Shown piece by piece: positions 4,077 through 41,051 of a DNA stretch of 41,257 nucleotides (position 1 is the first letter of the stretch; each line of letters opens with the position of its first letter). Location: contig VMSS01000065.1 in NCBI GenBank assembly GCA_013791995.1, forward strand, positions 1 through 41,257, read 5' to 3'. Made by a program: the position numbers and the translations under genes. This stretch comes from Desulfurivibrio sp. (GTDB lineage: Bacteria; Desulfobacterota; Desulfobulbia; Desulfobulbales; Desulfurivibrionaceae). The notes under the pieces are model-generated. The model did no database searches, was not told the DNA's origin, and worked only from the letters and a program-made list of their open reading frames with translations.

Positions 4077-6701
4077 ATGAAACATTCCATCACCGGCTCC
4101 CTCTTTCTCGGTTTTTTTGCAGTCCTCCTGACTTGCTCGACGGCGTACGCTGCAACCACGGTTGCCACCGTGGTTGCGATCCGCGGCAACGTCCAAGCCT
4201 TGAATGCTCAGGGCAAAAGCCGCGCGCTCGCTATTCAGTCCGCGATTTTCGAGGATGAAACCCTCCAGACCGGTGAACGCAGCCGGGTGCAGATCATGTT
4301 CTCCGACAACACCCTGATCAACCTCGGCAATGCAACAACCATGAAAATCGCCGAATACCGCTACCAGCCTGAGCAGAAAGATGGCGCTCTCAAAACCCAG
4401 ATCAAGGAAGGCACCTTCCGGATCATGGGCGGTGCCCTAGCCAAGACCGCCCCCCAAAACTTCAAGACCGAGACCCCCACAGCAACCATCGGTATCCGTG
4501 GCTCCATGTACGCCGGGCTCGTGACTCCAGATTTTCTCTCGGTTGTGTTCCAGGGCGGCAAGGGTATTGACATAACCAACGCCTTTGGCACCGTGGAAAT
4601 CACAAAACCCGGCTACGGCACCAAGGTGGCCTTGAACAAACCGCCGGTGCCGCCGATAAAATTCACAACGAAGGAACTGGGCGAATTGAACAAAGCCCTG
4701 GGTGGCAACGGCGCTGAAGAAAATGGAGAGGACAAGGAAAACGGCTCCGCTCCCAAGGAAGAACCGGGTAGCACTACAGGTCCGACAGATGATGACAAAG
4801 CCAGCTTGGGCGGCGGAGAGACAGTAACCACCCCCTTCCCCACTGTCCTCCCAATCATTCCCCCCGTACCGGATGACATAAAAAAGGATGTGGTTGTAAA
4901 AAAATCACAAACCGACTTGGTCACCACGGCAAGCATCACAGCAGACAGCACGGTGCCCAACAGTACTGCGCTTATTGGCAAATACCGCATTATTCTTCGG
5001 GATATCGATCTTGCCCTCAGCAACCCATCGAATTTTAATTCAACCTTCCTCTTATGGGATAGCGGCACGGTGAATGCCACCATTTTCAGTAACGGTACGC
5101 TTCAAGCCTCTTCCGTTACCGACGGTACTTCTTCTGCCCCGTTATCAGGCTTCCCCACCTCTTTTGGCCCATACACCTTCACGAACTATACCCCGGCAGC
5201 AACAAGTTATAGCGGTTTCACCTCGTTTACAGACACGTTCAGCTATAATGAGCCTGACGCGGGCCTTCTTACTCTGACCGTTACCAATTATGTGGAGCCA
5301 TCCGGACAATTTTTCTATAATACTACCCTTTTTGCCATCGACTTAGCCCCTCCCGATTACGATTTGCTCCTCGCCTCGCTGGTGTACGCTGGTATTCCGT
5401 CCGGAGGCATTCCCACTACGGGCATCGACAAATTCACCGGCCACCTGATCTACGACTCTCCCACGTCGCTGGACGGAAACTTGGAAGAAACCAGAACCGT
5501 GGTCAACTACTACAACAAACGGTTCATCGGCCGCTCCTCTGACAAAATGTTTCAAGATTTTGGCCGCGGCGGGGCCGTGTTTTTTGGTTCTCTGGCTGCG
5601 GACGGCACCGCCGCTGTCACCATCCTGGCTGGCGGTGATCCCTATGGAAACGATGTTACTGCTGCCTTCAGTAATACTGCCACCGCCACCCTTTACGGCA
5701 GCTTCCAGCAGGGCCTCGCTTTTACAGCCTCCGGCCATGACTACTCCATCATCAACAACACGGAAACCAGCTCCTGGGATGCTACCGGCGCTGCCATGCG
5801 TAGCCCGACCCGTGATTACATCTCCTATCCGACTTCCCCCATTGCCTATACAGGATTTCTCATAGGCGTGGGCGACGACACCTTCGATGGATCAATACAT
5901 CGCATTATTATGAATACCACATCCACCGACTTCGCCATGTCCGTAAACCCAACCACTGGGGTGCTTAGCGGCGCTATCAACAACCTGAATGACCTCATCG
6001 CCATTGAAAATGAACAGTCACCAGTTATCATGCCCACCCTTACTATAGGCGGCAGCGCAGCCTATTCCGCTTATGTAGCGAACGACAACATGGTAGCTAT
6101 TCTTTCCGGCGACTCCCTTAAGGATTACGGCAACTTTCTGGTTACCGCCGGTCCTGACGCCCCGGTAATCACCAACGTTTCCAACGATTTTATGACTTGG
6201 GGATACTGGGAAATAGCCTACGATGACCCTTCTGAAAGCAATGATCACCTGTTCAGCTCGCAATCCTTCTTTGTTGCCGGGCAACAAACTCTTATCACAG
6301 AGGTTAACTCCCTCATCACTTCCAGTTCCTCCGGCACTTACACTGGCAAGGCTTTTGGCATACAAATAGACTCCAATGGTCACAACACCCAACTTACTTC
6401 ATCGTCTGGCGCAAACCTTTGGGGCACTGTCAACCTGGGTATCAACTTTGCTGCCGCCGCCACGACTTCAGTCAACGGGGTCATTAACTTTGACCAGGCG
6501 GTCCTGAGCATTAATTCAGGGACGCCCGTTCTGCCGAGCGGCTTCTCAGCCGAGGTCTCCACTGTATCGGGCGCAGTCCCTCTTTCAAGTTCAGTCAACG
6601 GCGCCTTCTTCGGTTCTGACGCCGCTGCGATAGGCGGCAACTTCCAAGCTCGGATGAATGACGGTGTTCGTTATCTTGGCATCTTCGGCGGGAATCGCTA
6701 A
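4077..6701 (+). CDS. Exported FecR-domain protein with TbpB-like C-terminus
   Basis: An 874-residue exported protein. The signal peptide ends near AYA at about residue 25. C20 lies in LLTC, a poor lipobox, so lipidation is doubtful. A FecR domain spans about 28-175 (IRGNVQ, TLQTGERSRVQIMFSDNT, TATIGIRGSMY). An acidic Gly/Pro/Glu linker follows (about 200-250), then about 600 residues rich in Ser, Thr, Asn and Gly, with beta-strand patterning. The end carries VNGAFFGSDAAAIGGNF (840-856) and finishes GIFGGNR, closely like the last strands of TbpB/Slam-substrate barrels, where FYGPxAxExGGxF is typical. The start has AGGAGG seven bases upstream. It lies 86 bases after the Slam-like gene and 24 before the cyclase gene. 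The FecR assignment is firm; the TbpB-like reading is by motif only. The ligand is unknown. Confidence 0.8.
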   Translation: MKHSITGSLFLGFFAVLLTCSTAYAATTVATVVAIRGNVQALNAQGKSRALAIQSAIFEDETLQTGERSRVQIMFSDNTLINLGNATTMKIAEYRYQPEQKDGALKTQIKEGTFRIMGGALAKTAPQNFKTETPTATIGIRGSMYAGLVTPDFLSVVFQGGKGIDITNAFGTVEITKPGYGTKVALNKPPVPPIKFTTKELGELNKALGGNGAEENGEDKENGSAPKEEPGSTTGPTDDDKASLGGGETVTTPFPTVLPIIPPVPDDIKKDVVVKKSQTDLVTTASITADSTVPNSTALIGKYRIILRDIDLALSNPSNFNSTFLLWDSGTVNATIFSNGTLQASSVTDGTSSAPLSGFPTSFGPYTFTNYTPAATSYSGFTSFTDTFSYNEPDAGLLTLTVTNYVEPSGQFFYNTTLFAIDLAPPDYDLLLASLVYAGIPSGGIPTTGIDKFTGHLIYDSPTSLDGNLEETRTVVNYYNKRFIGRSSDKMFQDFGRGGAVFFGSLAADGTAAVTILAGGDPYGNDVTAAFSNTATATLYGSFQQGLAFTASGHDYSIINNTETSSWDATGAAMRSPTRDYISYPTSPIAYTGFLIGVGDDTFDGSIHRIIMNTTSTDFAMSVNPTTGVLSGAINNLNDLIAIENEQSPVIMPTLTIGGSAAYSAYVANDNMVAILSGDSLKDYGNFLVTAGPDAPVITNVSNDFMTWGYWEIAYDDPSESNDHLFSSQSFFVAGQQTLITEVNSLITSSSSGTYTGKAFGIQIDSNGHNTQLTSSSGANLWGTVNLGINFAAAATTSVNGVINFDQAVLSINSGTPVLPSGFSAEVSTVSGAVPLSSSVNGAFFGSDAAAIGGNFQARMNDGVRYLGIFGGNR

Positions 6702-6725
6702 CAACAAGGGAAACAACGCCAAGAG

Positions 6726-8972
6726 ATGATACAATCCTCCCGACTCAAGGCGTTCTTCACCCTTAGCCCCTTCAAGGTCGGCTGCCTGGTAACCCTGGCA
6801 GCCGTCCTGCTGTTCGCCTCCTTTGGCCTGCAAAAACCGGATATCCTCAAAACCCTGGATAACCGGCTCACCGACACCATGTACCGCTGGCGTGGCACGG
6901 TCACCCCCTCCCAGCCCATCGTTATTGTCGATATCGATGAAAAAAGCCTGCGGGCCATTGGCCAATGGCCGTGGCCGCGCGACACCGTGGCGCGGATGAT
7001 TCAAAACCTGAGCGGTGGCGGAGCAAAGGTTATCGGCATGGATATTGTCTTTGCCGAACCGGACCGCACCTCACCTAAAAACTTTGTTGATGAGTTGCAG
7101 AAACTTCTGCCGGCGCAACTCACGCCGGAAATGCTGACGGAGCTAAAAGCCAACGAGGCTCTGGATCATGATCTGGCTCTTGGCAAAGCCCTGGCAGTAA
7201 CCCCCTCTGTTCTGGGCTACGTCTTCCAGACCCAGGATGACGGCCTGAAAAACCAGGCGGATATCCCTTTTCCTTCCGGCATTACCCGCTTGGTGCCCGA
7301 CACCATTTCCTATGAGAATATATCACTTATTCGAGCGTACCGGGCCATCACCAACGTCACCACAGTCGCCCAGAGCCAGAGCGAAGGTTTTTTCAATGTG
7401 TTCCCCGACAATGCCGGCACAGTGCGCAGGGTTCCGCTTTTCATGATGATGGACAACGTCCCGTACCCGTCCCTGCCCCTTGAAATGGCACGTATCGGCA
7501 TGGGACATCCGGGGGCGACCATCCATGTGTCCAGGCAGAAAAAAACCTTCCCCAAAGACATACTCGGAATCGAACTGGGCACAACCTTTATCCCTACCGA
7601 TGAAAAAGGCCAGCTCACCGTCAATTTCAGGGGGCCGGGACAGACCTATCCCTACCTTTCCGCCATGGACATCCTGGCAGGAAAAAACCTCGATCAGGTA
7701 AATGGAAAATATGTTCTTATCGGCACCTCCGCCGCGGGCCTCCTCGACCTGCGGGCCACGCCTTTTTCCAACATCTATCCGGGAGTGGAGGTGCATGCCA
7801 CCATCATCGACAACATCCTCACCGGCGACCCTTTCACCCATGACATCTTCACCGAAATCGGCATCACCTACGCCCTGCTTCTGGTCGGCGGTATCGGTTT
7901 ATCCGCGCTGCTTGTCTATGCCACCCCCCTGGCCGGCGGGCTTGGCGGAGTGCTGCTTTTCCTGGCTACCGTGGCGGGAAATTACTTTTTATTTTTCAGC
8001 CGCAACCAACTCCTTGGCCTCTCCTATCCGCTCCTGACCGTCCTGGTGATTTTCCTCGTTGTCACCCTGTTCAATTACTTTTTCGAAGGCCAGAAAAAAA
8101 GGTTCATCAGCACGGCCTTTGGCCATTATGTTTCCCCGGAGATTGTGCACCAGCTTCTGGAGCATCCGGAAAAACTCTCCCTGCGCGGAGAGCAGAAAAA
8201 CCTCACCGTGCTTTTCAGCGACATCAAAGGGTTCACCTCCATCTCCGAAAAAATGACCTCCGAAGAGCTGGGCCTGTTCATGAACGAGTATCTCACTGCC
8301 ATGAGCCGTATCGTACTGGAAGGCAAGGGAACCGTTGACAAATTCATCGGCGACGCTATCATGGCCATCTGGGGCGCGCCCCTTGACGATGATGACCACG
8401 CGGCCAACTGTGTCCGGGCGGCGTTCAGGATGACCAAGAAACTCGAGGAGTTACGGGCGGACTGGCAGAAACGGGGACTGCCCGGAGTTGATATCCGCAT
8501 CGGCATCAACACCGGAATTATGAGCGTGGGAAACTTCGGCAGCGATCAACGCTTTGACTACACGGTCATGGGAGACAACGTCAATCTGGCCTCCCGGCTG
8601 GAAGGCTCGAACAAAACCTACGGCACCGGCATCATCATCTCGGAATACACCAAGGCCGCGCTGGGAGACCGATTTTACTGCCGGGTTCTCGATCTGGTTC
8701 GGGTCAAGGGCAAGGATGTGCCGGTGCGCATATATGAGCCTCTCTGCGAGGGCGAGCCGGAGACGGAACTGAAAAAGGAAACAGAGGCGTTTGGCGAGGC
8801 CCTGCAACTGTATACAAACCGCGAATTTCAGGAAGCCGAGAAAATCATCCTCGCGCTCAACAAAAACAGGGAGCTGCCGCTTTACGATCTTTACCTCGAC
8901 CGTATCGCTCATTTTGCGGCCAATCCGCCACCTGATGACTGGGACGGGGCATTCACATTTACCACCAAGTAA
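6726..8972 (+). CDS. CHASE2-domain class III adenylate cyclase
   Basis: A 748-residue inner-membrane sensor cyclase. A first membrane helix (about 18-36) leads to a CHASE2 sensory domain on the periplasmic side (about 45-370, with IVIVDIDEKSLRAIGQWPWPR), three helices (about 378-452), and a cytoplasmic class III cyclase domain (about 490-670). The two metal-binding aspartates are D499 (FSDIKGFT) and D543 (FIGDAIMAIWG), 44 residues apart as usual. K539 and the VNLASR motif supply substrate and catalytic positions, so the enzyme should be active and make cAMP from ATP. About 80 helical residues follow. It is the last gene of a unit with the Slam-like barrel and the FecR protein, which may pass an envelope signal to CHASE2 (inference). 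A weak GGGAAAC precedes the ATG. Confidence 0.93.
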   Translation: MIQSSRLKAFFTLSPFKVGCLVTLAAVLLFASFGLQKPDILKTLDNRLTDTMYRWRGTVTPSQPIVIVDIDEKSLRAIGQWPWPRDTVARMIQNLSGGGAKVIGMDIVFAEPDRTSPKNFVDELQKLLPAQLTPEMLTELKANEALDHDLALGKALAVTPSVLGYVFQTQDDGLKNQADIPFPSGITRLVPDTISYENISLIRAYRAITNVTTVAQSQSEGFFNVFPDNAGTVRRVPLFMMMDNVPYPSLPLEMARIGMGHPGATIHVSRQKKTFPKDILGIELGTTFIPTDEKGQLTVNFRGPGQTYPYLSAMDILAGKNLDQVNGKYVLIGTSAAGLLDLRATPFSNIYPGVEVHATIIDNILTGDPFTHDIFTEIGITYALLLVGGIGLSALLVYATPLAGGLGGVLLFLATVAGNYFLFFSRNQLLGLSYPLLTVLVIFLVVTLFNYFFEGQKKRFISTAFGHYVSPEIVHQLLEHPEKLSLRGEQKNLTVLFSDIKGFTSISEKMTSEELGLFMNEYLTAMSRIVLEGKGTVDKFIGDAIMAIWGAPLDDDDHAANCVRAAFRMTKKLEELRADWQKRGLPGVDIRIGINTGIMSVGNFGSDQRFDYTVMGDNVNLASRLEGSNKTYGTGIIISEYTKAALGDRFYCRVLDLVRVKGKDVPVRIYEPLCEGEPETELKKETEAFGEALQLYTNREFQEAEKIILALNKNRELPLYDLYLDRIAHFAANPPPDDWDGAFTFTTK

Positions 8973-32723: not shown

Positions 32724-34180
32724 ATGCACTTCATAGAGATACTCCGCAATTACTGGCCCCACCTTGTTTCTCTTCTTTCTTTCGCTGTAACTGTTCTCAC
32801 CATTTTTCATATCCTTTTGAAAAAGCGCGATACCAAGGCAGCGACCGGCTGGGTCGGCTTGGTGTGGTTTGCCCCTTTGTTAGGTGCCTGCCTGTACTGG
32901 TTGTTCGGGGTCAATCGCATAGAAAGGAGGGCCAAAGCACGCTTTGCGAGAAAGGAAGCGTGGCCTTTGCCCACGACGGACTCAGCCGTTTCCCCCAATA
33001 TATTATGGACCATCTTTCTGCCGGAGGAGAGGGGTTGGCAGACTTGTGCCGCTTAACGGATAAAATCGTCCGGCAGCCGCTTTTATCCGGAAACACCATT
33101 GTCCCACTCATCAATGGCGATCAGGCCTTTCCGCTCATGCTTGCCCAACTGGAAAAGGCTGAAAGATCCATCACCCTGACCTCATATATTTTCAACAATG
33201 ACGCATGGGGAAGCAAATTCAGGGTGGCGCTGACAGAGGCACAAAAAAGAGGGGTCGAGATCCGGGTCATCGTTGATGGGGTCGGCGCCAGGTATTCCTT
33301 CCCGCCAATCACCTGGGCCTTGCGGAAAGATGGAATTAATACAGCCTCCTTCATGCAGACCCGACTGCCCTGGCGCTTTCGCTATGTTAACCTGCGCAGC
33401 CACAGAAAAATTCTTGTTGTTGACGGCAAAATCGGCTTCACCGGCGGAATGAATATCCGGGCGGAAAATGTGCTCGCCGAAAAACCGTCCCATCCCATCC
33501 AGGATCTTCACTTTCTGATCACAGGGCCGGTGGTGGGAGGATTGCAGTGCGCCTTTGCCGAGGACTGGGCTTTCACCACCGGGGAAAAGCTGCAGGGAGA
33601 AAAATGGTTTCCACAACTCTCTCGGGATGGAGACGGAATTGCCAGGGGGATCATTGATGGGCCAGATGAAGATTTTGACCTGCTGCGCCTGGTGATCTTG
33701 GGAGCATTGACCGCAGCCCATTCTTCGATCCGGATCGCGACTCCCTATTTTTTACCGGACAACGAACTGCTGACCGCGCTCCGGCTTGCCGCTCTGCGCG
33801 GCATCGACGTCCAGATTCTTATCCCTAAAAAATCCAACCTTCTTCTCGTCGGGTGGGCCGCAGAACCGAGTCTTGAAGATCTGCTTGCCTCGGGATGCCG
33901 CATCTTTCACACCCCTCCTCCCTTTGATCATTCCAAGATAATGATTGTCGACCAAACCTGGATTTTACTCGGTTCGGCGAACTGGGACACCAGGAGCCTC
34001 GCCCTGAACTTTGAGTTCAACCTGGAATGTTACGACAAAAAACTGGCCGCGAAGATGCAAGAGATTCTGACCCAAAAACAGGCCCAAGCGCAGGAAATCA
34101 CCGTGCAGCAGTTGCGGGCAAAGAGCCTGCCCATACGGCTCAGGAATAATTTTTGCCGACTCTTTTCCCCCTACCTTTAA
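32724..34180 (+). pseudogene. cls: Cardiolipin synthase gene interrupted by a -1 frameshift
   Basis: Together the two frames encode about 485 residues, the normal length of a PLD-type cardiolipin synthase. The first frame (32724 to about 32995) gives two membrane helices and the GWVGLVWFAPLLGACLYWLFGVNRIERRA signature region; it would stop at 33056. The second frame, shifted by -1, carries the rest from about 32995 to 34180, including two HKD motifs (SHRKILVVDG and FDHSKIMIVD with GSANWDTRS). The simplest explanation is loss of one C in the C5 run at about 32992-32996: adding it back joins the frames smoothly. All catalytic residues are intact, so the change is recent or a sequencing error. 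No canonical slippery heptamer is present. The 3' end overlaps umuC by four bases, convergently. Confidence 0.85.
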
Positions 34181-35451
34181 GACGCCTGCACAATAGGGAG
34201 TTCATGCCAATTAGTAGTGTAGGAGGGCGATTTCATCGCCTGTTTATGATGCCAGGGCTTGACCAGTCCGGCAGAACCGTATTGAAGCGTGTCCCTGCCC
34301 CAGCGGTGGTTAATCCGGTCAAGTGCCTGATGAAGGTTGTCGCGGTTTCTGCGCGGGGCAATGAAGAGGTTGGCCTGGTGGTGGATATGCTCGGGGATCA
34401 GATCGCAGAGGACCACCCCCACCTTCTGATAGGCGTAGCCCGACCGGAACAACTCCTTAAGACAGCGCATGGACTGTGCGATCAATTCGGCGGTGTCCGC
34501 CGTGGGGCATGGCAGGGTTATGGTCCGGCTGTTGGCGTACTGGGGCTGGTCGGTGCGAAACCGGTTGGTGGTGAGGTACAAGGTGAGACAACCTGCTTTG
34601 AGCTGCTGCGCCCGGAGTTTCTCCGCTGCCCGGGAGACATAAGAAGCTGTAGCCTCGTGCATTTCCTGAAGCTCCGTTACCAAAACACCGAAGGATCTGG
34701 AACAGGCAATGGAATGTTTGGGCGGCGGGACCTCATCCAGAGAAAAACAAGAGATGCCCTGCAGCTCGTGCATGGTTCTGAGTCCGGTGATACTCAGGTG
34801 TTTCCTGACCCAGGTCTCATCGGCCCGGCTCAGATCGTAGGCGGTAAAAATACCGCAGTCGGCCAGTTTCCGACTGGAGCGGCTGCCGATGCCCCACACC
34901 TCCCCTGCCTCGACACCCTTGAGGATGGAGTCGATATCGCTCTCCGGCAGGATAATAAACACCCCGCCATGTTCCGGTTGTTTCTTGGCCATGCGGTTGG
35001 CGATCTTCGCCAGAGTCTTGGTGGGGCCAAAGCCGATGGAAACCGGGATGCCGGTATGCTGCCGGACACTGGCCCGAATATTCCCTCCGGTGATACGCAA
35101 AACCTCCTCCTTGGCCGCAGGCAGCCGGATGAACGCCTCGTCGATGGAATAGACCTCCACCTCAGGCTCAAGGCGCCCCACCTCCTCCATGACCCGTCGG
35201 GACATATCGCCGTACAACGCATAGTTGGAAGAAAATACCCGAACCCGGTTCCGGTTGATCAGGGACTTGGCACGGAAATACGGCTCCCCCATCCGAAGGC
35301 CAAGCACCTTGGCCTCGTTGGAGCGGGCGATGATGCAGCCGTCGTTATTGGACAGCACCACCACCGGCTGTCCCTCAAGTTCGGGATTAAAAACCCGTTC
35401 GCAAGAAACATAGAAATTATTGCAGTCGAGCAGGGCAAACAGAGCTGACAT
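34177..35451 (-). CDS. umuC: UmuC-type Y-family translesion DNA polymerase
   Basis: A 424-residue DNA polymerase V catalytic subunit. The Y-family active site is seen in [18 protein letters not shown] (first metal Asp, D9) and in YSIDEAF (catalytic Asp and Glu). Helix-hairpin-helix ([17 protein letters not shown]) and little-finger regions follow, with the UmuC-specific C-terminal region (KVGVVLCDL). Length matches UmuC and not the shorter DinB. It lies nine bases after umuD, forming the umuDC operon, expected to be induced by DNA damage. The last residues overlap the cls frame by four bases on the other strand. Confidence 0.94.
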
Positions 35452-35460
35452 GGGATGAAC

Positions 35461-35904
35461 CTAAAGGGCGTGGACCACGTAAGCAACCACCCCCCAGATC
35501 TCGCAGGTGATTCCTTCGGCCAGATGAATATCGGGATAATCGGGATTCTCGGCCTTGAGGCAGACGCTCTCGCCGTTTTTGACCAACCGTTTCACGGTAA
35601 GTTCGCCGTTAACCACCGCGATCACCACCTTACCGCTGATCGGATCGAGAGAACGGTCCACCACCAGGATGTCATTGTGATGGATACCGACCCCGAGCAT
35701 GGAATCGCCTGCCACCCGCACAAAAAAGGTGGCGCCAGGATTGGCCACCATAAGCTCGTTGAGGTCGAGCCTGCCCTCGATATAATCATCCGCCGGGCTG
35801 GGAAACCCGGCGGAAACGCTGCAGCCAAATAGAGGGCGCTTCAACTCATTTGTACGGTTGAAGGCGTAGACCGCCGAGAGGGTTGGACTGAGGGAGGCAT
35901 TCAT
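35461..35904 (-). CDS. umuD: UmuD-type S24 self-cleaving protein
   Basis: A 147-residue partner of UmuC. The predicted self-cleavage site is A32-G33 (SAGFPSPADDY); the catalytic Ser-Lys dyad is S68 (GDSMLG) and K105 (LTVKRL). RecA filaments trigger cleavage to UmuD', which activates UmuC. ATG at 35904 gives the normal length; the open frame runs on to 36012 without homology. The upstream promoter lies so close that its transcript would begin at or next to this ATG, hinting at a leaderless or very short leader mRNA. No GAAC-type or CTGT-type LexA box was recognised. Confidence 0.93.
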   Translation of the reverse strand: MNASLSPTLSAVYAFNRTNELKRPLFGCSVSAGFPSPADDYIEGRLDLNELMVANPGATFFVRVAGDSMLGVGIHHNDILVVDRSLDPISGKVVIAVVNGELTVKRLVKNGESVCLKAENPDYPDIHLAEGITCEIWGVVAYVVHAL

Positions 35905-35910
35905 GGCCCC

Positions 35911-35939
35911 ACTATACAGGATAAGTTCGGAGGTGTCAT
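35911..35939 (-). promoter_or_regulatory. Promoter candidate at the umuD start
   Basis: On the minus strand ATGACA (five of six matches to the -35 consensus), a 17-base spacer and TATAGT (five of six) end six bases before the umuD ATG. The expected transcription start falls on or beside the ATG. Coordinates are by eye to within one or two bases. Confidence 0.5.
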
Positions 35940-36084
35940 CGCGGGTAATGGGACAAACAGAAAATTGGAACAGACGCATGTCCCTGCACGTGTACTGGTC
36001 TTTCTTGAGCATTATTCGTTGCTACCAATCCCGCAGGGCTGCGTATCGTGCTGTGGCATTTGGCGATACACATCTGCATTTCCC

Positions 36085-36291: not shown

Positions 36292-37983
36292 TTGAAAAGA
36301 CAGATTGCCTTCGCAGTTCTCGCCCTGTTTTGCGCACTGGTTCCAGCGGCGATAGCCAAGACGACGGTTTCCGGCGTTATCAGCATGGATTTTGACTTGT
36401 CCCAACATCCCCATAGCAAAGAGGTGCGACTCTGGATACCCTACCCGGTCACGGATACGAACCAGGATATTACCAAAATAAAAATTTCCGGCAATTTTGC
36501 CGAATCCGCCGTCTATACGGACAAAGAATTTAAAACTCCCATGCTCTATGCCCGATGGGATAAGAACGCGACAAACCGGAACTTAAGCTTTTCTTTTCAC
36601 GCCACGCGTGAAGAAGTTCTCCGGCGTGATTTCCCCACCAAAGAGGGTGCCTGGGATCCTCGCGATCATGCACTATATCTTGCCCCCACCCGCCTCGGCC
36701 CTATTGACGGAGAAGTAAAAAAGCTGGCGAATACAATCACCCAAGGCAAAAAGGGTGTGCTTGCCAAAGCCCAAGCCATCTACGACTGGACAGTGGAAAA
36801 CACCTATCGAAATCCCGATACCCGTGGGTGCGGCAGGGGCGATGTTTTTCGGCTGCTGCAGGAACCGGGCGGCAAATGTGCCGATATCAGTTCTATTTAT
36901 GTCGCCCTGGCACGAGCCGCGGGAGTCCCGACTCGGGAGGTTTTCGGTATTCGCATGGGCAAGACTGCCACCCAGGACATCAGCACCTGGCAGCATTGTT
37001 GGGCTGAATTTTTTCTGCCCGGCTACGGCTGGGTGCCGGTTGATCCAGCCGATGTGAGAAAAATGATGCTGGTGGATAAATTGCCTCTGGATGCCCCCAA
37101 AATTAATGAGGCCCGGCACTATTTCTGGGGCGGTATCGATGCTTACCGGATCAGGCTTGGAGAAGGCCGGGATCTGGTCCTCAATCCACCCCAGCAGGGA
37201 GAACCGGTCAACTACCTGATGTATCCCTTTGCCCAGGCGGGAGAGACAACCATCGACTGGCTTGACCCGGTTTCATTCAAATACACCATTACCTTTCATC
37301 AAAAACAGAAGGCAGAGGACGGCTATGGACTGATTGACACGGACAGTCTGAAAAAACTTCTTGATGCCGGAGCAGCCGTGACCGTTGTCGATGCAAGAAA
37401 TCCCGAGGAGTATCAGGAAGTGCATGTGAAGGGGGCGATCAATGTTCCTGAAAAGAAATTTTCCGACCATATAGGCCAACTCCCCTCGGATAAATCAGCC
37501 CGAATCGTTTTTTACTGTAACGGCGTCAAATGCGGCAAAAGTAAGCGTTCCGCGAACAAGGCCGTGGAAATGGGCTATGACAATGTTTTTGTCTACGATG
37601 GAGGTATGCCGGTCTGGGAGGAAAAGGGCATGCCGATATATGCCGGGCCGGATCACGAGAAACGCATCGAAACCACGAAAATCACTCCACCAGATCTCAA
37701 TCTTTTACTGAAGAACGGGCCCGACACCTATACGCTCGTCGATGTGCGTGATCCGGACGAATTCAGGGAGAGCCACATACCGGGCGCCATCAATATTCCG
37801 GCGGCTTCCTTTGCCTCGCAGTCGGGCGTGCTCGACAAGGAGAAAAAGATCATCGTGTACTGCAACTCCGGCGGTCGCAGCTACAACGCTTACCGAAAAT
37901 TGATGAAGCTCGATTACAAGGACATCCGGCAGGCGCTTTTCGCCGACTGGAAAGAAGCCGGACTGCCGGTCGAGAAACCTTAG
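36292..37983 (+). CDS. Exported transglutaminase-like / double rhodanese fusion protein
   Basis: A 563-residue exported protein. A signal peptide (about 1-22, cleaved near AIA/KTT) is followed by a beta domain, a transglutaminase-like domain with the intact triad C196 (GGKCADIS), H235 (QHCWAEF) and D251 (PVDPAD), and two rhodanese domains. Their active-site loops are CNGVKCGK (C409) and CNSGGRS (C524), both with the catalytic Cys. Transglutaminase-like domains of this type are usually peptidases or amidases; rhodaneses carry sulfur as persulfide. The combination suggests periplasmic sulfur or peptide chemistry but no known pathway. The start is TTG at 36292, with GAGGTGA just upstream and the signal peptide starting there. 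It is 42 bases before the double-cubane reductase gene. Confidence 0.88.
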   Translation: MKRQIAFAVLALFCALVPAAIAKTTVSGVISMDFDLSQHPHSKEVRLWIPYPVTDTNQDITKIKISGNFAESAVYTDKEFKTPMLYARWDKNATNRNLSFSFHATREEVLRRDFPTKEGAWDPRDHALYLAPTRLGPIDGEVKKLANTITQGKKGVLAKAQAIYDWTVENTYRNPDTRGCGRGDVFRLLQEPGGKCADISSIYVALARAAGVPTREVFGIRMGKTATQDISTWQHCWAEFFLPGYGWVPVDPADVRKMMLVDKLPLDAPKINEARHYFWGGIDAYRIRLGEGRDLVLNPPQQGEPVNYLMYPFAQAGETTIDWLDPVSFKYTITFHQKQKAEDGYGLIDTDSLKKLLDAGAAVTVVDARNPEEYQEVHVKGAINVPEKKFSDHIGQLPSDKSARIVFYCNGVKCGKSKRSANKAVEMGYDNVFVYDGGMPVWEEKGMPIYAGPDHEKRIETTKITPPDLNLLLKNGPDTYTLVDVRDPDEFRESHIPGAINIPAASFASQSGVLDKEKKIIVYCNSGGRSYNAYRKLMKLDYKDIRQALFADWKEAGLPVEKP

Positions 37984-38025: not shown

Positions 38026-39321
38026 ATGAGTTCCACCGCTTTTGAGGTCAAGGCCTACCCCGAGATGTGGGAAAGCCTGAATATGGATGTTCCCCGGTTT
38101 GACAAAGCCCGGCAGATGCTCGGCGAGGTCTACGGCAAGATGTACCTCTCCCAGCCGGACCGGCCACAGAACATGGCCTATTTCGACGAGATGATCTCCG
38201 AGATCTTCGGCGGCCGAATCAAGGAGATGCTGGATGTCAAAAAAACGGGCAAGCCCGTGGTCGGCACTTTCTGTGTGTATATCCCGGAAGAAATCGTTGT
38301 GGCGGCCGGCGGGATTTGTGTCGGACTCTGCGGCGGCTCGCAGGGGCCGATCCCCGATGCGGAAAAAATTCTGCCCAGAAACATCTGCCCCATGGTCAAG
38401 TCGGCTTACGGTTTCAAGGCCGGTCGCATCTGCCCGTATTTTCAGATTGTGGATTTCGTCTACGGCGAAACAACCTGTGATGCCAAAAAGAAAACCTGGG
38501 AGATTCTTGACCGGCTGGTTCCCACCTATGTCATGGAAATCCCGCAGATGAAGAACAAACGGGATAAAACCCTGTGGCTGGAAGAGGTGAAAGATTTCAA
38601 GGCCAAGGTCGAGGAGGTCTGTAAAACGAGCATTTCCGCTAACGATCTTGCCGGGGCCATCAAGGTGATCAACGACAAGCGCCGGGCTCTCCAGCGCTTG
38701 ACCGGAATCCGCTCGGCCAACCCCGCTCCGATCAGCGGCAAGGATGCACTCCTGATCGAACAGATCGCCTTTTATGACGAGCCGGTACGTTTTGCCCAAA
38801 AGGTGAATGCGCTCTGCGTCGAATTGGAACATCGGATTGCAAACGGTGAAGGCGTTGCCCCTGCCGCTGCCCCGCGGGTCATGGTTTCCGGAACGCCCAT
38901 GGCGCTGCCCAACTGGAAAGTGCACAATCTGGTGGAGACCGCAGGAGCTGTGATCGTCAATGAGGAATCCTGCATCGGTACCCGCTATTTCAAGGATCTG
39001 ATCGATGAAAATACCAGCGACATCGACAGCCAGCTTGAGGTGCTGACCGACCGCTATATGCAGATCGACTGCTCCTGCTTCACCCCGAACAACGAGAGGG
39101 TGGATCAGGTGCTCAAAGAATATAAGGATTCCAACGCGCAAGGAATCCTGCACTATTCTTTGCAGTTCTGCCACACCTACAATATCGAAGAGATCAAAAT
39201 CCGCGAAGCGTGTGAAAAGGAGGGTATCCCCTATCTTTCCATCGAATCGGATTATTCCCCCGAAGATGTGGGCCAGCTGCAGACTCGCATCGAAGCATTC
39301 CTTGAGCAAATCCGGGGATGA
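38026..39321 (+). CDS. Double-cubane-cluster type reductase (2-hydroxyacyl-CoA dehydratase superfamily)
   Basis: A 431-residue cytoplasmic protein of the HgdB/BcrB-C superfamily (FCVYIPEEIVVAAGG, CPYFQIVDFVYGETTCD, HNLVETAGAVIVNEESC, SLQFCHTYN). As a single gene followed by one activator, it fits the double-cubane cluster proteins and E. coli YjiM, not the two-subunit acyl-CoA dehydratases or four-subunit benzoyl-CoA reductases. Cysteines available as cluster ligands are C83, C121, C136, C151, C316, C349, C351 and C382. The Carboxydothermus relative carries an Fe8S9 cluster and reduces small molecules such as acetylene with ATP. The natural substrate is unknown. AGGAGA precedes the ATG. The stop overlaps the next start by four bases. 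Confidence 0.87.
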   Translation: MSSTAFEVKAYPEMWESLNMDVPRFDKARQMLGEVYGKMYLSQPDRPQNMAYFDEMISEIFGGRIKEMLDVKKTGKPVVGTFCVYIPEEIVVAAGGICVGLCGGSQGPIPDAEKILPRNICPMVKSAYGFKAGRICPYFQIVDFVYGETTCDAKKKTWEILDRLVPTYVMEIPQMKNKRDKTLWLEEVKDFKAKVEEVCKTSISANDLAGAIKVINDKRRALQRLTGIRSANPAPISGKDALLIEQIAFYDEPVRFAQKVNALCVELEHRIANGEGVAPAAAPRVMVSGTPMALPNWKVHNLVETAGAVIVNEESCIGTRYFKDLIDENTSDIDSQLEVLTDRYMQIDCSCFTPNNERVDQVLKEYKDSNAQGILHYSLQFCHTYNIEEIKIREACEKEGIPYLSIESDYSPEDVGQLQTRIEAFLEQIRG

Positions 39322-40070
39322 GCATGCGGGTCGGCATAGATTTGGGCTCAAGGACCATCAAGGTTGCGGCTATGTGTAACGGCCAGCTTGTCGATCATCA
39401 GTTGGCCGAGAGCGGTTTTGATCCCTATGGCCAATCCATGGCCATGATCAAAAAATATGAGGCTGAAAAGATCGTGGCCACCGGTTACGGTCGGCATCTG
39501 GCCCAGGAACATTTTGCCCAGGAAGTCATCACCGAGATAAAAGCCCATGCCATCGGCGCGCGCCATTTTTTCCCGGATTGCCGTACCGTGATCGATATCG
39601 GAGGCCAGGACTCCAAGGTTATTTCCCTGGACGAACAGGGTCGGGTCGCCAACTTTCAGATGAATGACAAATGCGCGGCCGGAACCAGCAGATTCCTTGA
39701 AATCATGGCCGCAACCCTTGGTTTTCGCCTCGACGAGTTCGGTCCGGCGGCCCTTGAATCGCAAAACGAGGCCAACATCAACAGCATGTGCACGGTATTT
39801 GCGGAGTCCGAGGTGATTTCCATGAAAAATCGCGGCATCCCCCGGAAGGATATCGCCAGGGCAGTACATCTTTCCGTGGTCAACCGCCTCGTCATCATGC
39901 TGAGCAGGGTAGGCTTTGGCCGGAAAATTGTTTTCTCCGGCGGAGTTGCCAGAAACCCCTGTATTGTGCACATGTTGCACGAATGGCTGGGCGAGGCGAA
40001 AGTGGAGTCCTCTCCGGCACCGGATTTAATCGGGGCCATAGGGGCTGCCATCCATGCAGGAAAATGTTGA
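39318..40070 (+). CDS. ATP-dependent activator (acyl-CoA dehydratase activase family)
   Basis: A 250-residue ASKHA-fold ATPase that uses ATP hydrolysis to push electrons at very low potential into the partner reductase. The ATP-site motifs are GIDLGSRTIKVA, VIDIGGQDSKVI and FSGGVARNPC. In the family a 4Fe-4S cluster is shared between two subunits through two cysteines each; here they are C119 (NDKCAAGTSRF) and C158 (NSMCTVFAESEV). Length matches HgdC/YjiL. ATGA overlap with the upstream reductase gene shows translational coupling. A small Cys-rich gene follows after 15 bases. Confidence 0.93.
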   Translation: MSMRVGIDLGSRTIKVAAMCNGQLVDHQLAESGFDPYGQSMAMIKKYEAEKIVATGYGRHLAQEHFAQEVITEIKAHAIGARHFFPDCRTVIDIGGQDSKVISLDEQGRVANFQMNDKCAAGTSRFLEIMAATLGFRLDEFGPAALESQNEANINSMCTVFAESEVISMKNRGIPRKDIARAVHLSVVNRLVIMLSRVGFGRKIVFSGGVARNPCIVHMLHEWLGEAKVESSPAPDLIGAIGAAIHAGKC

Positions 40071-40085
40071 TCTACAGTACAACAC

Positions 40086-40352
40086 ATGACAACATGGAAG
40101 CTGAAAACAGGTTGCGAGGCTCTTTTCTACCACCTCTGCTCGGACTGCACCGAGCGGTCGGCAGAAGGTTTGCTGCAAGCCGGCTGGAAGAAAATCCGTG
40201 ACGGCGAACCCGTATCGTGCAACGAATGCACCCGAAAATGCGTCCTCACCTCCACTTCCCTGTGGGGTGCGGATGAAGAAACGCGCTATGCCGTTTGCGC
40301 CCAATGCGGAGAACTGAGCATGTGTCCATTAAAAGGGCGTTACTACTGTTAA
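40086..40352 (+). CDS. Small cysteine-rich protein linked to the double-cubane reductase
   Basis: An 88-residue protein with ten cysteines: C10, C18, C21, C45, C48, C52, C71, C74, C80, and C88 as the last residue. They form CxxC pairs (CSDC, CNECTRKC, CAQCGELSMC), the pattern of iron-sulfur or zinc-ribbon proteins. There is no signal peptide, so it should be cytoplasmic like its neighbours. It lies 15 bases after the activator gene and before a terminator, so it is likely the third gene of that operon. No family was recognised. It might be an electron donor to the activator, a cluster-assembly aid or a zinc protein. The ribosome-binding site before ATG 40086 is weak, so translation may depend on coupling. 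Confidence 0.72.
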   Translation: MTTWKLKTGCEALFYHLCSDCTERSAEGLLQAGWKKIRDGEPVSCNECTRKCVLTSTSLWGADEETRYAVCAQCGELSMCPLKGRYYC

Positions 40353-40388
40353 GTTGCCTTTGCCCTAATCATTGAAAAAATTAAAATG

Positions 40389-40425
40389 GAGAAACGAGCC
40401 GATAATTGCCTGTTTCTCTTTTTTT
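40389..40425 (+). terminator. Terminator of the reductase operon
   Basis: GAGAAAC (40389-40395) pairs with GTTTCTC (40412-40418), with partial inner pairing, followed by seven T. It stands 36 bases after the stop of the cysteine-rich gene. The rest of the gap to 40682 shows no gene or clear signal. Confidence 0.7.
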
Positions 40426-40682
40426 CTCATGTGGTGCCTCCTGCGGAACTAAAACCATTTTTTAGTGATTAGCCTTGATAATAGATCCGCCCCCCAGTTT
40501 TTATATGGATACTTTGTGGCATAGTTCCATAAGGGTGATTAGACTATTTAAAATATGGCACAGAACTGGCTGTGACTCTCGGTAAAGGCCAAAACAAGCT
40601 GTCTCCGTACTCTTTTCAGAACAATTAATACCTTATGGAGCCGGATTGTATCTACTTATCCCAGAATAACGAGGAGACAAAC

Positions 40683-41051
40683 ATGAGAGGATCAAACCGC
40701 ATGACGAAACGTTTTATGATCGTTTTATTGGCAGGATGCATATCGCTCCTTGTTTCCGGTGTCGCCTGGTCGCAATCACAAAACAGCACAAGTGACAATT
40801 CGGGACAACGGGTTGAGGCTTTGTCCATCAAAGGCAAGGTGAAGAGTGTTTCCCTGGAAACAAAGACCATGCTCATCAAACCGAAAAAAGGGGCAACCCT
40901 ACACATCTCTTTTAATGAGCAGACAACGTTAATCGCCTTTGATTCTTTTGATGACATCAAAGAAAAGCAATCTGTTACGATCTGGTACACGGTTGAAGGA
41001 GAAAACAACATCGCCGTGAAGATAGAAAAAGCACCGGAAACTGGTTGTTGA
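40683..41051 (+). CDS. Small exported protein of unknown function
   Basis: A 122-residue exported protein. After a basic start (MRGSNRMTKR) comes a hydrophobic segment with LLAGC (C19), a good lipobox, but the hydrophobic stretch continues to GVAWSQ, so either lipidation at C19 or signal peptidase I cleavage near residue 30 is possible. The mature part (about 95 residues) is strand-rich (GKVKSVSLETKTMLIKPKKG, TTLIAFDSFDDIKEKQSVTIWYTVEG), resembling small periplasmic OB-like domains of the DUF5666 type, by pattern only. ATG 40683 has GAGGAGA about six bases upstream. It precedes a DsrE-like gene by 55 bases and may share its transcript. Confidence 0.75.
   Translation: MRGSNRMTKRFMIVLLAGCISLLVSGVAWSQSQNSTSDNSGQRVEALSIKGKVKSVSLETKTMLIKPKKGATLHISFNEQTTLIAFDSFDDIKEKQSVTIWYTVEGENNIAVKIEKAPETGC

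Follow-up and report, generated by a model that had tools for sequence, protein, structure and literature searches.

The cysteine-rich small protein encoded beside the double-cubane-cluster protein (DCCP) of Desulfurivibrio sp. is tentatively best explained, on the evidence of sequences and gene neighbourhoods, as an optional metal-binding accessory of a sulfur/selenium DCCP module, rather than as a general supplier of electrons to the activase. We prefer this reading because most DCCP genomes of the order lack the small gene and because of the genes that recur around DCCP in related genomes. Members of the DCCP family have an [8Fe-9S] cluster, one of the most unusual metal clusters in biology, and their activase spends ATP to supply it with electrons at very low potential.

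The stretch of DNA analysed (the window, 41,257 nucleotides) carries an operon-like cluster of four genes on the forward strand, in the order TG-rhodanese, DCCP, activase and small protein. The DCCP gene (38026..39321, 431 aa) overlaps by 4 bases the gene of an ATPase of the acyl-CoA dehydratase activase type, the DCCP reductase (39318..40070, 250 aa). After a gap of 15 bases follows the gene of the cysteine-rich small protein (40086..40352, 88 aa; alignments A1 and A2), and then a predicted hairpin with a T-run that resembles a terminator (40388..40426, from fold energy). This arrangement is as given in the original prediction, including the overlap, the gap, the ten cysteines of the 88-residue ORF, and a terminator after it. 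The hairpin itself (around 40388-40419) has a fold energy of -11.9 kcal/mol, against -6.4 for shuffled sequences (z -2.3). It is not among the sites returned by a consensus terminator scan, which found three terminator-like sites in the region, fewer than the mean of 4.1 in shuffles. The TG-rhodanese gene (36292..37983) was overlooked at first and is probably the first gene of the DCCP cluster: it lies on the same strand and ends 42 bases upstream of DCCP. Its product has a transglutaminase core and two rhodanese domains (Pfam PF01841 and two matches of PF00581) and looks exported, with an N-terminus that by eye resembles a signal peptide. Several related loci likewise have a homologous rhodanese protein next to DCCP. 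Further upstream, on the reverse strand, the window encodes a UmuC-like (IMS, DUF4113) and UmuD-like (Peptidase_S24) pair (34177-36012). Downstream, on the forward strand, is a 138-aa ORF (40635-41051) whose start looks by eye like a signal peptide and for which a family scan gave nothing over cut-off.

The assignment of the reductase and its ATPase to a double-cubane pair was confirmed by profile searches, in which both proteins score above the curated cut-offs. The reductase reaches 492.6 bits on NF040772, the model of double-cubane-cluster-containing anaerobic reductases (cut-off 350), and the ATPase reaches 230.2 bits on TIGR00241 (cut-off 125.4). The best PDB match of DCCP is 7yyl/6eno (E 5e-154), and the cysteines of the conserved motifs of 7yyl_C are cysteines in the window protein as well, in an alignment read by eye. 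The activase matches by sequence the PDB entries 4eht and 1hux and the activase 7yyl_E. The pair thus resembles the DCCP system of Carboxydothermus hydrogenoformans (6eno, 7yyl; NF040772) in family, cysteine positions and type of the adjacent activase, but the locus of the window adds an exported-type rhodanese before the pair and a small protein with eight conserved cysteines after it. The passages on DCCP in PMC7306483 and PMC11971306 mention no protein like the latter; those of PMC7306483 describe a DCCP pair accompanied by a LysR-like gene, and those of PMC11971306 state, in 2025, that archetypal DCCPs have no known biological function. By sequence, the activases of 2-hydroxyacyl-CoA dehydratases and class I benzoyl-CoA reductases (4eht, 1hux, 9gai) are of the same family as that of the window, but their partner is a two-subunit dehydratase or benzoyl-CoA reductase, whereas here it is the single-gene DCCP.

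The small protein has ten cysteines, arranged in three CxxC pairs (18/21, 45/48 and 71/74) plus Cys10, Cys52, Cys80 and Cys88. Such a density is rare in this DNA: ten cysteines were found in 7 of 17,698 segments of 88 residues, counted in the six reading frames of the window, that of the gene included. The alignment of 19 members has 21 invariant columns, eight of which are cysteines (Cys18, 21, 45, 48, 52, 71, 74 and 80). Conservation of the cysteines had been proposed as a test of the small protein's role, and eight of the ten are thus kept throughout. Cys88, at the extreme C-terminus in a motif GR-Y/H-Y/F-C-end, is present in 18 of the 19 members and absent in the one of genome G033, while Cys10 is found only in the member of the window. 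The gene is under purifying selection, with NG86 dN/dS values between 0.07 and 0.28 (in the 13 of 55 pairs with estimable dS). By these sequence comparisons the small protein belongs to a genuine protein family, so far without a name.

This family has a patchy distribution. Of 58 genomes searched for homologues, that of the window and those of 57 relatives, 9 gave a match (E <=0.01), but one of these (G030) was dropped, its match being weak and to a ferredoxin-like ORF. A profile search of the whole order retrieved it in 20 of 257 genomes, from 13 of 69 genera and from 8 families. In a sample of the phylum (395 genomes) it was found solely in the genome of the window. With the window protein as query, a scan of genome contigs gave four loci, from Desulfobulbaceae, Desulfurivibrionaceae and Deltaproteobacteria, which correspond to G237, G246, G254 and G256. 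No relatives were found among plasmids and viral contigs, and a PADLOC run gave no match.

No Pfam or NCBIfam model matches the window protein over cut-off. Weak matches were seen to zinc-finger profiles: the window protein has sub-threshold matches to GATA (0.0024) and lunapark ribbon (0.0015) zinc fingers, below the curated cut-offs, and the central domain of FdhE (PF24859) is weakly matched by 9 of the 19 members (best E 0.014). The latter match covers the CxxC region of the window protein, at 14.6 bits for a cut-off of 27, and the small protein differs from FdhE in length and context. AlphaFold2 gave a model of moderate quality (pLDDT 82, pTM 0.60; 58-67 in the other four models), which has Cys88 in its least confident, probably mobile, part. 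With this model, Foldseek returned nothing at E <0.001, and the best VIA-align hit (Z 3.2) was to unrelated proteins. We also rejected two candidate roles for selenocysteine in these genes. The stop codon of the window activase is a TGA in frame with the small gene, but related loci carry TAG, TAA or a double stop at this point, which rules out a read-through from one protein to the other. The apparent replacement of a conserved cysteine by selenocysteine in the small protein of G034 is a frameshift, since the other frame reads an ordinary CPLKGRYFC end.

The small gene is associated with DCCP in the order. Using NF040772 with E up to 1e-60, we detected DCCP in 109 of the 257 genomes. Of the 20 genomes that carry the small gene, 19 are among these, as are 90 of the 237 others (Fisher p 4e-7, uncorrected for kinship). 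The reverse does not hold. Since 90 of the 109 genomes with DCCP lack the small gene, the small protein is not required for DCCP. We mapped the neighbours of 21 copies of the gene, in the window and in 20 fetched stretches, and found it beside DCCP and activase in 16 of the 20 genomes. This count includes a degenerate copy after the activase in G134 (L056, 7607 onward), of which about 35 residues match before the sequence diverges. Gene order varies among the linked copies, with at least three arrangements: the small gene directly follows the activase (the case in the window), precedes DCCP, or comes after a series of activase, DoxX and rhodanese genes. Linkage had been proposed as a second test beside the cysteines, and as homologues mostly neighbour the reductase pair, neither test refutes the prediction; this linkage, together with the conservation of the family, supports the view of the original prediction that the small protein is a dedicated component.

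The unlinked copies fall in two contexts. One genus contributes four genomes (G245-G248) in which the small gene lies away from DCCP, in the order HdrA-FlpD-HesB-small-ArfB. Three of these (G245, G247 and G248) encode DCCP on another contig, with activase, DoxX and rhodanese genes, and no DCCP was found in G246, an assembly that is 88% complete. G043 has a second copy (L047, 1337-1639) that stands alone directly after a gene for an RsgA-type GTPase, with no DCCP beside it. Genomes with the small gene are clustered on a DCCP tree built from 56 sequences: its presence requires 7 changes of label, against a mean of 15.9 when labels are shuffled (none of 500 shuffles was as low), and the well supported branches force at least 3 changes.

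The genes around DCCP suggest in which process the reductase may take part. We added 37 DCCP loci of genomes that lack the small gene, as well as those of G245, G247 and G248, and searched for partners with tblastn (>60 bits) in stretches of up to around 17 kb, some of them cut by contig ends, and in the whole window for the genome of the window (G000). Near the 47 closer DCCPs (at least 71% identical to that of the window) we found HesB at 20 loci, HdrA at 14, SelD at 7 and a rhodanese at 26, and 37 of these 47 loci have at least one of these partners. The only partner seen near the 9 distant DCCPs (32-52% identical) was one SelD. YedF also recurs at the DCCP loci of the window's subclade. 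Family scans identified the partners as FlpD/MvhD (PF02662), IscA/HesB (NF038090), SelD, YedF, SelB-like proteins and rhodaneses; the HdrA2-like one scores 965 bits on NF040770, below the cut-off of 1100. The window's contig has no HesB, HdrA or SelD near the DCCP pair, and a query with a single sequence found no HesB in the window's genome.

Some of these clusters encode a fused formate dehydrogenase (TIGR01591 over cut-off), which is a possible formate-driven source of electrons. We found it in the DCCP clusters of L057 and L062, both without the small gene. The fusion, of an NAD(P)-oxidoreductase and a formate dehydrogenase alpha subunit, is very long (L057, 1282-5379; L062, 6680-9949) and lies inside the HdrA-FlpD-HesB-DCCP cluster. 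An ORF of L059 (7173-11270) has the same length as the fusion of L057, length alone being compared. Other neighbours concern selenocysteine: in two families (L051, 3887-3979; L054, 8236-8328), a tRNA-Sec gene is found around 0.5 kb away from the small gene. In L046, directly before the small gene, there is a SelB-like gene in two overlapping ORFs (5240-7272), in a genome that also has a complete SelB elsewhere.

Selenium use as such does not determine which genomes have the small gene. SelB scores over cut-off in 214 of the 257 genomes of the order; being near-universal, it does not discriminate, which ruled out this candidate. SelB may be missing from the window's assembly because the best match there is weak (E 7.5e-56, against around 1e-105 in most genomes). 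The same genome encodes a protein with the Se/S-carrier domain PF11823, followed by SelD (L099, G000:C220, 190-1628), and this SelD has one in-frame TGA. Among 297 genomes sampled across the phylum, DCCP is encoded in 105 and SelD in 264. By eye, the two lie within around 5 kb of each other in at least 7 of the 105 (G415, G329, G300, G326, G340, G368 and G470). SelD was not seen in at least 5 genomes with DCCP (G259, G361, G365, G396 and G399), and DCCP is therefore not strictly dependent on selenium. The small number of DCCP genes near SelD, the genomes without SelD, the near-universal SelB and the lack of a HesB hit in the window's genome all weigh against the selenium side of the module.

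Selenium clusters with SelD, YedF and DUF3343 are described in the relevant passages of PMC5322559, and the DCCP loci analysed here similarly carry SelD or YedF in several genomes. Among the STRING partners of YedF, YedE, LysR and DUF3343 in Table 1 of that study (Lin et al. 2015) are a CoA-enzyme activase and a 2-hydroxyglutaryl-CoA dehydratase subunit. These rows are a prior hint of a link between DCCP and selenium, but the accompanying passages do not discuss them and mention no eight-cysteine protein. HesB, HdrA and MvhD are treated as selenoprotein families in passages of PMC13188914. Within the searches made, we found nothing further in the literature joining DCCP with these partners and selenium terms.

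These data bear differently on the alternative roles of the small protein. The original prediction suggested, among other roles, that it is a dedicated electron carrier and might explain how electrons reach the activator. Such a carrier would hold rubredoxin-like iron sites, or else one or two Fe-S clusters, and reduce the activase. The eight invariant cysteines of the small protein, and the location of its gene beside that of the activase, with little space between them in several loci, are what one would expect of it. However, a route that 90 of the 109 DCCP genomes of the order do without was not borne out as a general one, four genomes keep the gene with HesB, HdrA and FlpD rather than with DCCP, and none of the 19 members matches ferredoxin or rubredoxin families of Pfam or NCBIfam (E up to 1). 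HdrA-FlpD, which two loci combine with the fused formate dehydrogenase, would be a better and more conventional candidate for the donor, and we regard the carrier role as unlikely. Attractive, but hardly more convincing to us, is a role in which the metal sites would hold the fold while Cys88 carries a persulfide or perselenide between rhodanese- or SelD-type proteins and DCCP. The near-constant presence of this residue at an extreme, probably mobile C-terminus agrees with it, as do the rhodaneses, YedF, SelD and tRNA-Sec found as neighbours in several loci. Yet the member of G033 lacks the residue, the carrier families PF11823 (sought in 19 members), TusA and DsrE are unmatched, and the near-universal SelB leaves selenium use without predictive value for the small gene.

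The weak zinc-finger matches (GATA, lunapark ribbon, FdhE central domain) and the presence of ArfB, RsgA, SelB or tRNA-Sec in some loci could indicate a zinc-finger-like regulator or a factor linked to translation, but the zinc-finger matches of the window protein stay under the curated cut-offs and the DCCP pair is the most frequent neighbour. We consider such a role improbable. We find it most improbable of all that the small gene is adjacent to DCCP by accident and unrelated to its function. The patchy distribution of the gene and the unlinked copy beside RsgA in G043 would fit this, but chance does not easily account for a linkage seen in 16 of 20 genomes, in several gene orders, when the 20 genomes span 8 families.

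We return to the accessory of a sulfur/selenium module as the reading that we tentatively prefer. In Desulfobulbales-type bacteria, DCCP would belong to a module for the handling of sulfur and selenium, as its neighbours suggest, whose other recurrent parts would be rhodaneses, a cluster carrier of the HesB/IscA type, HdrA with FlpD/MvhD, and SelD/YedF. HdrA-FlpD would be the likely source of electrons. The small protein would fold around two putative metal sites of four cysteines each, such as CxxC-x23-CxxC and C-x18-CxxC-x5-C, and dock with HesB, with DCCP or with both, and it may help to mature or protect the reductase or deliver to it. A more specific version, which we consider doubtful, makes DCCP itself the ATP-driven reductase of the sulfur/selenium supply: HdrA-FlpD, with or without formate dehydrogenase, would feed the activase, rhodaneses would deliver oxidised or sulfane selenium or sulfur for DCCP to reduce, and the eight-cysteine protein would act as its dedicated carrier or maturation partner.

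If true, this would be the first natural role for an orphan double-cubane enzyme outside aromatic degradation. The conserved module of rhodaneses, HesB, HdrA-FlpD, SelD/YedF and the eight-cysteine family would reduce to a few the candidates for the substrate, the donor and the maturation factor of DCCP. Its proteins are few enough to be expressed together, and it gives DCCP a role that can be tested.
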